Shown: one piece after another, positions 9,541 through 39,435 of the stretch
Layout: each line of letters starts with the position of its first letter
Position numbering within the stretch: position 1 is the stretch's first letter
Assembly (NCBI RefSeq): GCF_003841485.1
Contig: NZ_REFY01000001.1
Span: forward strand, 310,001 to 374,000
Length of the DNA: 64,000 nt
Source of the DNA: Natrarchaeobius halalkaliphilus
GTDB taxonomy: Archaea; Halobacteriota; Halobacteria; Halobacteriales; Natrialbaceae
Reading direction: 5' to 3'
Position numbers and translations under genes: made by a program
The notes under the pieces: model-generated
Database searches by the model: none
Seen by the model: the letters and a program-made list of their open reading frames with translations, nothing else
What the model was told of the DNA's origin: nothing

Positions 9541-9551
9541 AAATATTAATA
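9541..9551 (+). promoter_or_regulatory. TATA box before the 9590 kinase
   Basis: AAATATTAATA is the clearest A/T box in this intergenic stretch. It lies 28-38 bp before the ATG of the 4-codon ORF at 9579 and about 40-50 bp before the GTG start of the kinase, so a leaderless transcript would begin at or near the short ORF. Confidence 0.5.
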
Positions 9552-9578: not shown

Positions 9579-9593
9579 ATGAAGCACTGGTGA
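9579..9593 (+). other. Four-codon leader ORF overlapping a GTG start
   Basis: ATG AAG CAC TGG TGA encodes MKHW. Its TGA overlaps the GTG start of the kinase gene as GTGA. The ATG is at leaderless distance from the TATA box. It may serve as a ribosome loading site with re-initiation at the GTG. Function is inference; see the matching arrangements at 21815, 37654 and 38762. Confidence 0.4.
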
Positions 9594-10708
9594 TTCACGT
9601 GGATAACGATCCCCGCGAACGAGACGGCGGGCTCGAATCGACCCTTCCATCGAACCGCGATCCGGATCGATTCCGACACCTGATCGAACACATTCAGGAC
9701 GCCGTCGTCGAGTTCGAACTCGTCGACGGTGAGCCGATCGTGGGCGGCGTCAATCCGGCATTCGTCGACGTGTTCGGCTACGAGGCGGCCGAACTGATCG
9801 GCTCATCACTCAACCGGTACATCGTTCCGAAGTGGCTCGAGGACGAGGCGACGACGCTCGACGATCGAACGACGGCCGGAAAAGTGAACTATCGCCACGT
9901 TCGCCGAGAAACCGCCGACGGCCTTCGCGAGTTCCTCTACCGCGGCGTTCCTGTCGACACGAACGATGGAACGGATCGCGGATTCGCCGTCTACACCGAT
10001 CTGACGGAGGATCGCCGCAATAGGAGCCGAATAGACGTTCTCAACCGGGTGCTTCGGCACAATCTCCGTAACAAGGTCACTCTCGTCGCCGGTAGCCTCG
10101 AGGAACTACTCGACGAGCACGACTCGTCGTCGGTCGACTCGACCGATCAGCAATTGTACGAAAACGCCTGCGAAGGTATCGAGGAGCTTCGGACGCTGTC
10201 TCGAGAGGCGGGCGAGCTCTATCGAATCGTCGAAATGCCGGCGCTCTCCGATTCTTGCGTCGACTGCGTCCCACTGGCGCGGACGGTTGCGGATCGATTC
10301 GAATCGAGCCATCCGGCAGCGTCGATTGCACTCGATCTCCCGGAAACTCTTCCCGTCGGGGCGACCGAGCGACTCGAGGTTGCGATTACGAGCCTGGTGC
10401 AAAACGCTATCGAGCATAATCCGGCGGACGAACCGCAGGTCTGGATCGACGGAGGGATGGATGGTACCGAGTGGTGTTACCTCGCTGTCGACGATGACGG
10501 TCCGGGTATTCCACCGGTCGAACGGGACGTGATCACCGGCGACGCCGAGATTACCGAGACAACCCACGGAAGCGGCCTCGGGCTCTGGCTCGTCAAATGG
10601 AGCGTCGAGACGTTCGGCGGCGAACTCTCGTTCGTTCGAAGTCGCGCCGGAGGGAGTCGCGTCCAGTTGCGACTCCGACACTGTCGCGACGACGACCGGA
10701 GCCACTGA
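9590..10708 (+). CDS. PAS-domain sensor histidine kinase
   Basis: 372 aa from the GTG at 9590 (a second in-frame GTG is at 9599; no in-frame ATG is nearby). A PAS domain (about residues 22-140, LIEHIQDAVVEFELVDGEP through FAVYTDLTEDR) is followed by a haloarchaeal-type dimerisation box with the phospho-acceptor His near residue 157 (VLRHNLRNKV) and an HATPase domain with N box QNAIEHNP, G1 DDDGPGIP and G2 GSGLGLWLVKW. No membrane segment, so it is a cytoplasmic sensor. There is no adjacent receiver gene; it converges with another kinase on the minus strand. Confidence 0.9.
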   Translation: MIHVDNDPRERDGGLESTLPSNRDPDRFRHLIEHIQDAVVEFELVDGEPIVGGVNPAFVDVFGYEAAELIGSSLNRYIVPKWLEDEATTLDDRTTAGKVNYRHVRRETADGLREFLYRGVPVDTNDGTDRGFAVYTDLTEDRRNRSRIDVLNRVLRHNLRNKVTLVAGSLEELLDEHDSSSVDSTDQQLYENACEGIEELRTLSREAGELYRIVEMPALSDSCVDCVPLARTVADRFESSHPAASIALDLPETLPVGATERLEVAITSLVQNAIEHNPADEPQVWIDGGMDGTEWCYLAVDDDGPGIPPVERDVITGDAEITETTHGSGLGLWLVKWSVETFGGELSFVRSRAGGSRVQLRLRHCRDDDRSH

Positions 10709-21782: not shown

Positions 21783-21790
21783 CGTTTACA
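21783..21790 (+). promoter_or_regulatory. TATA-like box before the 21815 leader ORF
   Basis: CGTTTACA lies 25-32 bp before the ATG of the 12-codon leader ORF. This is the leaderless spacing, placing the likely transcript 5' end at the short ORF rather than at the downstream GTG gene. Confidence 0.4.
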
Positions 21791-21814: not shown

Positions 21815-21853
21815 ATGAGTGACGATGTCGAGAAACGGAGGGGGTCACGGTGA
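21815..21853 (+). other. Twelve-codon leader ORF overlapping a GTG start
   Basis: Encodes MSDDVEKRRGSR and stops at TGA 21851-21853, which overlaps the GTG start of the next gene as GTGA. The codons AAACGGAGGGGG inside it double as a purine-rich ribosome-binding site about 8 bases before the GTG. The composition (MSDD start) is protein-like, so it could be translated. Confidence 0.45.
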
Positions 21854-22272
21854 CCGGAGACGAGGACGACGCGTCGAGTCCGTCCGAACGCCGAGACGCC
21901 GCAGCGGAGTACGAGACGATGGCCGACGCGCTGGAGGATCTCGTCGTCGAACTCCGCGACGAGCCGATCGCGGAGTCGCGGCTCGAGGGGCTGTTCGACG
22001 AGGCGACCACGAGCGATCCGCGAATCTGGAACACCGTGACGGCGTTCATCGATATCGAAGACGGCGAGGCGGTCGTCACCGACGAGTCCAAGCTCGCGGA
22101 GGGAAGCTGGGCACCGGAGATCGTCGACGGCTGCGATGCGATGGTCACGGTCGACGTCCAGCGCGGACTGATGCCCGACGAGTTCACCTACGTCGTCGGC
22201 AAGGAACTGAGCGAACGGATCGATACGTTTCGAGAACGGGCGACAGAGGCGCGCCGACAGACGGAGAAGTGA
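21850..22272 (+). CDS. Acidic protein of unknown function
   Basis: 140 aa from a GTG at 21850, with a GGAGGGGG ribosome-binding site in the preceding short ORF supporting this start. The protein is highly acidic and largely helical (SERRDAAAEYETMADALEDLVVELRDEP) with a C-terminal helix ELSERIDTFRERATEARRQ. No motif or membrane segment is visible. It looks like a haloarchaea-restricted cytoplasmic protein. It lies downstream of the sulfatase by 110 bp but has its own likely promoter. Confidence 0.75.
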   Translation: MTGDEDDASSPSERRDAAAEYETMADALEDLVVELRDEPIAESRLEGLFDEATTSDPRIWNTVTAFIDIEDGEAVVTDESKLAEGSWAPEIVDGCDAMVTVDVQRGLMPDEFTYVVGKELSERIDTFRERATEARRQTEK

Positions 22273-37653: not shown

Positions 37654-37680
37654 ATGACTCGCTCACAGCTGCGCCGGTGA
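37654..37680 (+). other. Eight-codon leader ORF overlapping a GTG start
   Basis: Encodes MTRSQLRR; its TGA (37678-37680) overlaps the GTG start of the ACT-domain regulator as GTGA. Three of eight codons specify Arg. Position relative to the TATA box makes its ATG the likely transcript 5' end. A peptide leader ahead of an amino-acid-sensing regulator invites comparison with attenuation leaders, but no terminator/anti-terminator pair is visible. Confidence 0.4.
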
Positions 37681-38237
37681 CCGGCGAGAAAATAGAACGA
37701 AATGCTATTGGGATCAATCACGAAACACGAACCGTGTTCGACGAGATCATGGAGAAGTTCGAGGGGTCTCCGAGCCAACAGGCCGTTATTCGGCTGTTGC
37801 TCGAGCGCGGCTTCTCCGTCAACGACGACGGACGGGTGGTATCGGGCGGGATCGAGATACCGAACACGGGAATCGCCCGCGAGATCGACGTCGACCGACG
37901 GGTGGTCGACTCGACGACGGACGTAATCCTTGCCGATCCCGAACTCCGCCGCATCTTTCAGAACATCTCGCAGGTGCCGAGTCTGATGGATCTCGCACCC
38001 GTGTTGGATCTCACCGTGCTGTCGATCGCGGTTGCCGATCCCGAGCGCGAGGGCATCGTCGCCGGCGTCACCGGGACGCTTGCCGACAACGACATCTCGA
38101 TCCGCCAGGCGATCAGCGAGGATCCCGAGTTCACCGACGAGCCGAAGCTCTACCTCATTACGGATCATAACCTTCCGGGCGACGTCATCACCCAGATCCG
38201 AGATCTGGAGTACGTCCGAAAGATCGAGATTCAGTAG
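37677..38237 (+). CDS. ACT-domain regulator of amino-acid metabolism (COG2150-like)
   Basis: 186 aa from the GTG at 37677; no in-frame ATG fits. Residues 1-90 are a helical N-terminal domain (TVFDEIMEKFEGSPSQQAVIRLLLERGFSV, then DRRVVDSTTDVILADPELRRIF). Residues 108-182 form an ACT domain (LTVLSIAVADPEREGIVAGVTGTLADNDISIRQAISEDP). ACT domains bind amino acids allosterically. This archaeal family is predicted to regulate amino-acid metabolism. It converges with the next minus-strand gene with a single base between stops. Confidence 0.85.
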   Translation: MTGEKIERNAIGINHETRTVFDEIMEKFEGSPSQQAVIRLLLERGFSVNDDGRVVSGGIEIPNTGIAREIDVDRRVVDSTTDVILADPELRRIFQNISQVPSLMDLAPVLDLTVLSIAVADPEREGIVAGVTGTLADNDISIRQAISEDPEFTDEPKLYLITDHNLPGDVITQIRDLEYVRKIEIQ

Positions 38238-38631: not shown

Positions 38632-38761
38632 GTCACTGGTTAGCATTTGTAGGCACAATAGTATACTGGATCGATACTATCTGCCCCGTTTGGGCGGAAC
38701 GACGTCGGCTCCGGGGCCGGGGGACCGACGCGCTCTTTTTCGAGGCGACGGTACGGCCGGT

Positions 38762-38830
38762 ATGGTCGAAGACGGGGGGCTCACCGACGAGAACGGCGTG
38801 ATCGAATCCGGCCGCGGTGGCGGGCCGTGA
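38762..38830 (+). other. 22-codon leader ORF overlapping a GTG start
   Basis: Reads MVEDGGLTDENGVIESGRGG and two more residues, then TGA (38828-38830) overlapping the GTG start of the YigZ-like gene as GTGA. CTCTTTTTC (38733-38741) is a weak TATA box 21-29 bp before the ATG. The acidic composition is like that of real haloarchaeal proteins. Confidence 0.45.
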
Positions 38831-39435
38831 GCCGAAGTTATCGGACGCTCGAGGAACCAGCAACGGCCGAGTTCGTCGTCCGTGGCTCCGAGTTCTTCGG
38901 CCACGCCCGGCCCGTCGATTCCGTCGATGCCGCCGAGGAGTTCGTCGAAACCGTCGCGACGGAGTACGCCGACGCGACCCACAACGTCCCCGCGTATCGC
39001 GTTCGAGCCGATGCCGACGGCGACCTCCTTCGGGAGTACTCGAGCGACGACGGCGAGCCCTCCGGTTCGGCCGGAAAACCGGCACTGAACGTCCTCACAC
39101 GGCAGGATCTAGAGAACTGTGCGGTCGTCGTCACCCGCTACTACGGCGGCACAAACCTGGGCGTCGGCGGCCTCGTGAGGGCGTATTCCCGAGCGGTGAA
39201 AGACGCGGTCGAGGCGGCAGGAATCGTCGAGCGCCGTCCCCACGAAACCGTCTCAGTCACCGTCGCCTACGACGACTCGGGAACGGTCCGATCCGTCCTG
39301 GAAAGCGAGGGCTACGAGTTCGACGGGGAGTATCAAGCCGACGTCTCCTTTACCGTTCGCGTCCCCATCGCGGAGAGCGCATCTCTACGGGACCGGATTC
39401 GAAGCGCGACCAGCGGTCGGGCCGACCTCGCGTGA
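38827..39435 (+). CDS. IMPACT/YigZ family protein
   Basis: 202 aa from the GTG at 38827. The UPF0029 domain (about 15-120) has SEFFGHARPVDSVDAAEEF, DGEPSGSAGKPAL and the signature VVVTRYYGGTNLGVGGLVRAYSRA. The C-terminal 70 residues form the DUF1949-like ferredoxin-fold domain. Homologs associate with translation control or act on unknown substrates. Its start is embedded in the stop of an upstream 22-codon ORF. Confidence 0.9.
   Translation: MSRSYRTLEEPATAEFVVRGSEFFGHARPVDSVDAAEEFVETVATEYADATHNVPAYRVRADADGDLLREYSSDDGEPSGSAGKPALNVLTRQDLENCAVVVTRYYGGTNLGVGGLVRAYSRAVKDAVEAAGIVERRPHETVSVTVAYDDSGTVRSVLESEGYEFDGEYQADVSFTVRVPIAESASLRDRIRSATSGRADLA

Follow-up and report, generated by a model that had tools for sequence, protein, structure and literature searches.

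Conserved micro-ORFs overlapping gene starts as putative leaderless ribosome-delivery leaders in Natrialbaceae and other haloarchaea

Introduction

Coupled leaderless small open reading frames (ORFs) have been described in mycobacteria from transcription start site (TSS) and footprint data (Shell et al. 2015, PMC4633059). In the haloarchaeon Haloferax volcanii, overlapping gene pairs undergo termination-reinitiation (TeRe; Huber et al. 2019, PMC6728339; 2023, PMC10666635), for which −4, −1, and −8 are frequent overlaps in haloarchaea (PMC10666635), and Shine-Dalgarno (SD) motifs in Haloferax are inactive in de novo initiation and important for reinitiation (PMC6728339). Upstream ORFs (uORFs) of 15–31 aa are also known from long 5′-UTRs of H. 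volcanii, where they were sought only in leaders of 150–250 nt (Babski et al. 2016, PMC4983044). Leaderless GTG starts are very weak: a haloarchaeal test cited in PMC4983044 put them at 2.6% of the AUG level. Ribosome delivery via a short ORF ahead of the gene is mentioned in a 2025 review among the alternative initiation routes that have been proposed (PMC12548453). Here we evaluate a design in which a micro-ORF with its own predicted promoter ends on the start codon of the following gene. In the literature covered by our search, we found no description of this design in archaea, and the only haloarchaeal uORFs were those in 150–250 nt leaders (PMC4983044).

Results

Four micro-ORFs in the window and their predicted promoters

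The window, i.e., the whole 64,000-nt stretch of DNA that was analyzed, comes from a 3.51 Mb genome in 12 contigs, which is most closely related, among named organisms, to Natrialbaceae (e.g., Natrarchaeobius chitinivorans and Natrialba swarupiae). Unless a contig is named, coordinates below are window positions on the forward strand. The original prediction described four GTG-start genes, each preceded by a micro-ORF of 4, 12, 8, or 22 sense codons (sites 1–4) whose TGA overlaps the start codon as GTGA, and each with an A/T box ahead of the micro-ORF ATG, where a leaderless transcript should begin. All four micro-ORFs are present at the stated positions and with these lengths and overlaps, and each of the genes is read in the −1 frame with respect to its micro-ORF. 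For the promoters, we used a matrix trained on leading ATG genes, partly from the same genomes as those tested, which scores BRE/TATA elements ~26–36 nt before the start, i.e., at leaderless distance. The matrix scores bore out the predicted box at sites 1, 2, and 4, but were low at site 3.

At site 2, a box (CGTTTAC within GAAGCGTACGTTTACGG; 21783–21789) lies ~27–30 nt before the ATG of the micro-ORF (21815–21853, encoding MSDDVEKRRGSR before its stop) and is kept in most orthologs, and the promoter score was 6.9 at ATG21815 vs −5.4 at GTG21850. The gene behind it (21850–22272) encodes a 140-aa protein for which a Pfam search returned no match, and its frame is closed by a TGA lying inside the micro-ORF. 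At site 4, the box (CTCTTTTTCG; 38733–38742) lies ~26 nt before the ATG of the micro-ORF (38762–38830, encoding MVEDGGLTDENGVIESGRGGGP), and both box and spacing are kept in orthologs. The matrix as first built missed this site; once a TATA-to-start distance shorter by 1 nt was allowed, as found in the site 4 orthologs, it scored 8.1 at the micro-ORF ATG vs −1.1 at GTG38827. The associated gene (38827–39435) encodes a UPF0029/DUF1949 (YigZ/IMPACT-like) protein by Pfam, with homology from residue 2 onward in most relatives.

Coupling is retained across orthologs of sites 2 and 4

Next, we evaluated conservation through a frame-blind test, in which the highest-scoring promoter ATG is picked irrespective of frame and the end of its ORF is then located. 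Upstream DNA was sampled for 22 ortholog loci of site 2, 30 of site 4, and 46 named Natrialbaceae loci of site 4 that overlap this set, and counts cover the loci at which the best promoter ATG and the gene lie in different frames. This ORF ended on the gene start at 19/19 loci for site 2 and in 23/23 relatives for site 4, and likewise at 35/35 loci among the named Natrialbaceae, a sample overlapping the 23 relatives. Coupling expected from shuffled sequences was 0.22–0.26 per locus at these two sites and 0.09–0.28 over all families; since the loci are related, tail probabilities are indicative only and do not represent true significance levels. The site 4 micro-ORFs span 6–31 codons in orthologs, with 19 distinct lengths and the stop still on the start codon, which indicates that many indels were tolerated only in threes. 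Overall, the predicted micro-ORFs of sites 2 and 4 are real, conserved features.

A coupled upstream ORF was found at 21/22 site 2 ortholog loci. Among the exceptions, the promoter ATG of L039 is fused in frame with the gene, i.e., a direct leaderless start, and a 59-aa gene occupies the place of the micro-ORF in L050/L051. The product of this gene (MPKISVEIPQELLDDLDEHVGDDGKFVNRSDAIRASIRKSLDIF...) looks ribbon-helix-helix-like by eye, and its ORF has an ATGA overlap with the start of the site 2 ortholog; other genera have only the micro-ORF at this position. For site 4, L080 and L082 show a similar in-frame fusion of the promoter ATG, the stop of the ACT-domain gene itself overlaps the UPF0029 start in L079 (direct coupling), and in L061 and L382 a short GTG micro-ORF is linked to the ACT stop at one end and to the UPF0029 start at the other. 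Outside the family Natrialbaceae, UPF0029 genes are coupled to the ACT gene or to another upstream ORF, or are directly leaderless. In other lineages, such genes are coupled to an upstream neighbor, which the micro-ORF would probably replace.

Three further families were picked from the candidate list of the source genome itself, and all three proved conserved: out-of-frame promoter ATGs were coupled at 28/28 loci for KDG kinase, 9/11 for nitrite/sulfite reductase (NIR/SIR), and 5/6 for an MS-channel-like family, the latter two being less uniform than the other families. KDG kinase micro-ORFs come in 10 distinct lengths, and five additional families of the order share the arrangement (f3, f5, f7, f8, and f13). 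Upstream of the nitrite/sulfite reductase in L348, L349, and L357, two coupled micro-ORFs seem to stand in tandem, with the first stop on the second start and the second stop on the gene; the second peptide is alike in L348 and L349.

Sites 1 and 3

At site 1, a TATA-like box (TATTAATA; 9544–9551) precedes a tentative micro-ORF (MKHW and stop; 9579–9593) whose TGA overlaps GTG9590, the start of a PAS/histidine-kinase gene (9590–10708; Pfam). The promoter score was 11.0 at ATG9579 vs −4.1 at the GTG. Conservation is weak: there are two close homologs only, one (G015) with an 8-codon ORF and an 8-nt rather than a 4-nt overlap, the other (G020) broken by a stop and without clean coupling. The histidine-kinase homolog in the latter genome (L085) is interrupted by a TGA and is probably a pseudogene. 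Coupling at site 1 is plausible and weakly supported.

Site 3 was rejected as a member of the set: in 29 other genomes, the orthologous gene starts with an ATG at residue 20 of the ORF originally proposed. The micro-ORF is present in the sequence (37654–37680), and orthologs and promoter scores mark it as spurious. The probable true start of this gene, which encodes a protein with a sub-threshold Pfam match to the ACT domain, is GTG37734 (gene at 37734–38237), itself predicted to be leaderless, with a promoter score of 7.4 vs 1.6 for the GTG originally proposed and 1.1 for the micro-ORF ATG. Nearly all ACT orthologs carry an ATTATA-like box 25–30 nt before their ATG, a leaderless distance, and the family served as a negative control: 28/30 loci were directly leaderless and none was coupled. 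The region upstream of the gene in the window (37677–37734) looks different from that of its relatives, where an ATG follows an ATTATA promoter.

The design is in excess genome-wide

To look beyond individual loci, we scanned 1.97 Mb from four haloarchaea (827 kb of the source genome plus 381 kb apiece from three others), comprising 1,297 leading genes with starts from a home-made gene caller. Ahead of promoterless genes starting with NTGA, 18 promoter-bearing ATGs were open in the coupling frame as against 2 in the control frame (P = 0.0004). The corresponding counts were 12 vs 8 for promoterless NTG genes without a following A (NTGB), and the interaction between frame and NTGA/NTGB was borderline (P = 0.06). 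Among 79 promoter-bearing ATGs upstream of promoterless genes, the ORF stopped most often at the −4 (17) and −1 (5) overlaps, with at most 2 at any other stop position; upstream ATGs without a promoter also ended at the gene start in 82 of 648 cases. When coupled ORFs were counted without promoter information, the signal for ATGA genes was not separable from chance. Overall, the design as predicted from sequence is in genome-wide excess, and the 8 such genes in 827 kb correspond very roughly to ~30 per genome, part of them due to chance. Enrichment over chance in related genomes, on which the original prediction had staked its claim, was thus put to the test, and the claim survived. Its restriction to GTG starts, on the other hand, was too narrow: GTG starts are approximately threefold enriched among NTGA genes (11/86 vs 18/413, P = 0.009), but ATG genes share the design, e.g., the site 2 gene starts with ATG in 20/21 orthologs.

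The scan also returned two ORFs that may encode functional small proteins. A 29-codon ORF near position 667911 of G000:C1, with one hydrophobic helix (MSTPTKIVLGTVAVSAVLSLLLVFQTVFV) and a TGATG junction with the next gene, could be a real small membrane protein. Upstream of G016:C1 156897–157409, a 39-aa ORF rich in Cys (CECCEESIPATRRLCPAC) shares an overlap with the GTGA start of the following gene and looks more like a small zinc-finger protein than a pure leader.

The arrangement rather than the peptide is retained

Between micro-ORFs of equal length, differences were spread evenly over codon positions in three families (75/59/83, 24/24/25, and 12/18/10; sum 111/101/118), whereas the genes showed the usual third-position excess (142/135/440 for UPF0029 and 32/21/102 for KDG kinase). 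The same analysis for the site 2 gene was uninformative because its N-terminus is too variable for an ungapped comparison. Stop/start overlaps were −4, −1, or −8 nt. An SD-like motif lies within the micro-ORF at both conserved sites of the window (GGAGG at 21837–21841 for site 2, GGTGG at 38816–38820 for site 4), and at 43/50 UPF0029 loci, 17/21 site 2 loci, and 21/26 and 8/8 loci of the other two of the four families. Candidates carried SD-like runs of at least 5 bases more often (9/22) than leaderless-type genes did (49/813; P = 5e-6). For the 3′ end of 16S rRNA, two exact patterns had no match in the G000 assembly, hence the anti-SD sequence was assumed; the 16S rRNA of G000 may be absent from the assembly or differ from these patterns. 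Given the role of SD motifs in Haloferax, a conserved SD-like motif in the short leader of a non-operon gene points to reinitiation. In the predicted micro-ORFs, then, the peptide is not conserved, while the frame, the stop/start overlap, and the internal SD-like motif are, and it seems to be this arrangement that is preserved over many related genera.

Discussion

Several genes of this salt-loving archaeon seem to lack a site of their own for ribosome entry. We consider it likely that at sites 2 and 4, and probably at site 1, a leaderless AUG micro-ORF loads the ribosome and the gene is reached by termination-reinitiation. Transcription would begin at the micro-ORF ATG or a few bases away, and a ribosome would initiate there as on any leaderless haloarchaeal mRNA, produce a short meaningless peptide, and terminate at the TGA overlapping the start codon of the gene. 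The same ribosome, or its small subunit, would then re-initiate on the gene, aided by the SD-like motif inside the micro-ORF, which would act as a cis-acting ribosome-delivery device on which the gene depends. This is the loading and restart mechanism put forward in the original prediction; it is strongly supported by conservation and excess at sites 2 and 4 and for the genome-wide class, is plausible and weakly supported at site 1, and is refuted at site 3.

Chance deserves consideration, as stops are rare in GC-rich DNA and short ORFs ending in the TGA of a GTGA will often arise and mean nothing. The shuffled expectation and the 82 promoterless upstream ATGs ending at the same place illustrate this background, which agrees with site 3 and may account for site 1. 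Coupling kept at 19/19, 23/23, 35/35, and 28/28 loci despite varying ORF length nonetheless refutes chance for sites 2 and 4, and the 18 vs 2 frame asymmetry also speaks against it, so that as an overall account chance is very unlikely. Alternatively, micro-ORF codons could sense an amino acid or another signal and control the gene as a regulatory leader peptide or attenuator, consistent with the leader position and with some Arg- or Gly-rich micro-ORF peptides. We see only a slim prospect for this reading: neither peptide sequence nor length is conserved, substitutions fall evenly over codon positions, conserved regulatory codons were not found, and the Arg/Gly richness would follow from GC content and the SD-like motif.

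A programmed −1 frameshift could instead fuse micro-ORF and gene into one longer protein. The gene frame is indeed −1, and an SD-like motif inside a reading frame can promote frameshifting in bacteria. Against this, a start codon always occupies the overlap, with GTG and ATG exchanged between species, the preceding bases vary, and neither the length nor the peptide of the micro-ORF is conserved, which together make a frameshift extremely improbable. At 22/49 UPF0029 loci, a stop moreover closes the gene frame at most 4 codons before the start, which favors initiation at the NTG and is still compatible with a shift at the stop. Finally, the gene could be initiated directly at its GTG or ATG, from a short leader or an undetected second promoter, with the micro-ORF as a translated bystander. 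UPF0029 leaders are short (17–92 nt), and Haloferax has native leaderless GUG genes (PMC4983044). The gene starts themselves score low for a promoter, however, and a stop held strictly on the start codon through many length changes is unexpected for a bystander, leaving direct initiation about as poorly placed as the attenuator.

Going further, we lean towards termination-reinitiation from 5′-terminal leaderless micro-ORFs as a general haloarchaeal class, with a few tens of members per genome. The sole task of these micro-ORFs would be ribosome delivery to genes whose coupled neighbor upstream was lost or never existed; the leader SD would act only in reinitiation, and the micro-ORF would be a stand-in for the first gene of an operon. 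If true, this would explain how GTG-start genes are supplied with ribosomes and provide natural minimal substrates for asking whether whole ribosomes or small subunits act in archaeal reinitiation. Because annotation pipelines overlook such leaders, catalogs of haloarchaeal 5′-UTRs and start sites would need revision.

Among described systems, the uORFs of H. volcanii share with the micro-ORFs a short ORF before a normal gene on one haloarchaeal transcript, but an overlap with the gene start was not described for them, whereas here the stop overlaps the start and predicted leaders are ~17–116 nt (11 nt at site 1). The TeRe pairs of H. volcanii share the −4/−1/−8 overlap classes and the SD-like motif before the downstream start. 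Both of their partners, however, are ordinary protein genes of an operon, while the upstream partner here has 6–31 codons, a predicted promoter of its own, and a peptide that is not conserved (exceptions L050/L051 and L079). The mycobacterial small ORFs are likewise unannotated and closed by a TGA overlapping an RTG start (RTGA), with an architecture conserved without the peptide and overrepresented genome-wide. They lie at the 5′ end of leaderless transcripts, a position for which the haloarchaeal loci have a predicted promoter box at leaderless distance. They differ in belonging to bacteria rather than to an archaeon with another initiation apparatus, and in being backed by TSS and footprint data, the present case being a prediction from sequence. 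The haloarchaeal micro-ORFs further stand out through an internal SD-like motif in organisms whose de novo initiation does not use SD. If confirmed, a design so far documented in mycobacteria would extend to archaea: the arrangement predicted in Natrialbaceae and other haloarchaea works like the mycobacterial class without being a member of it.
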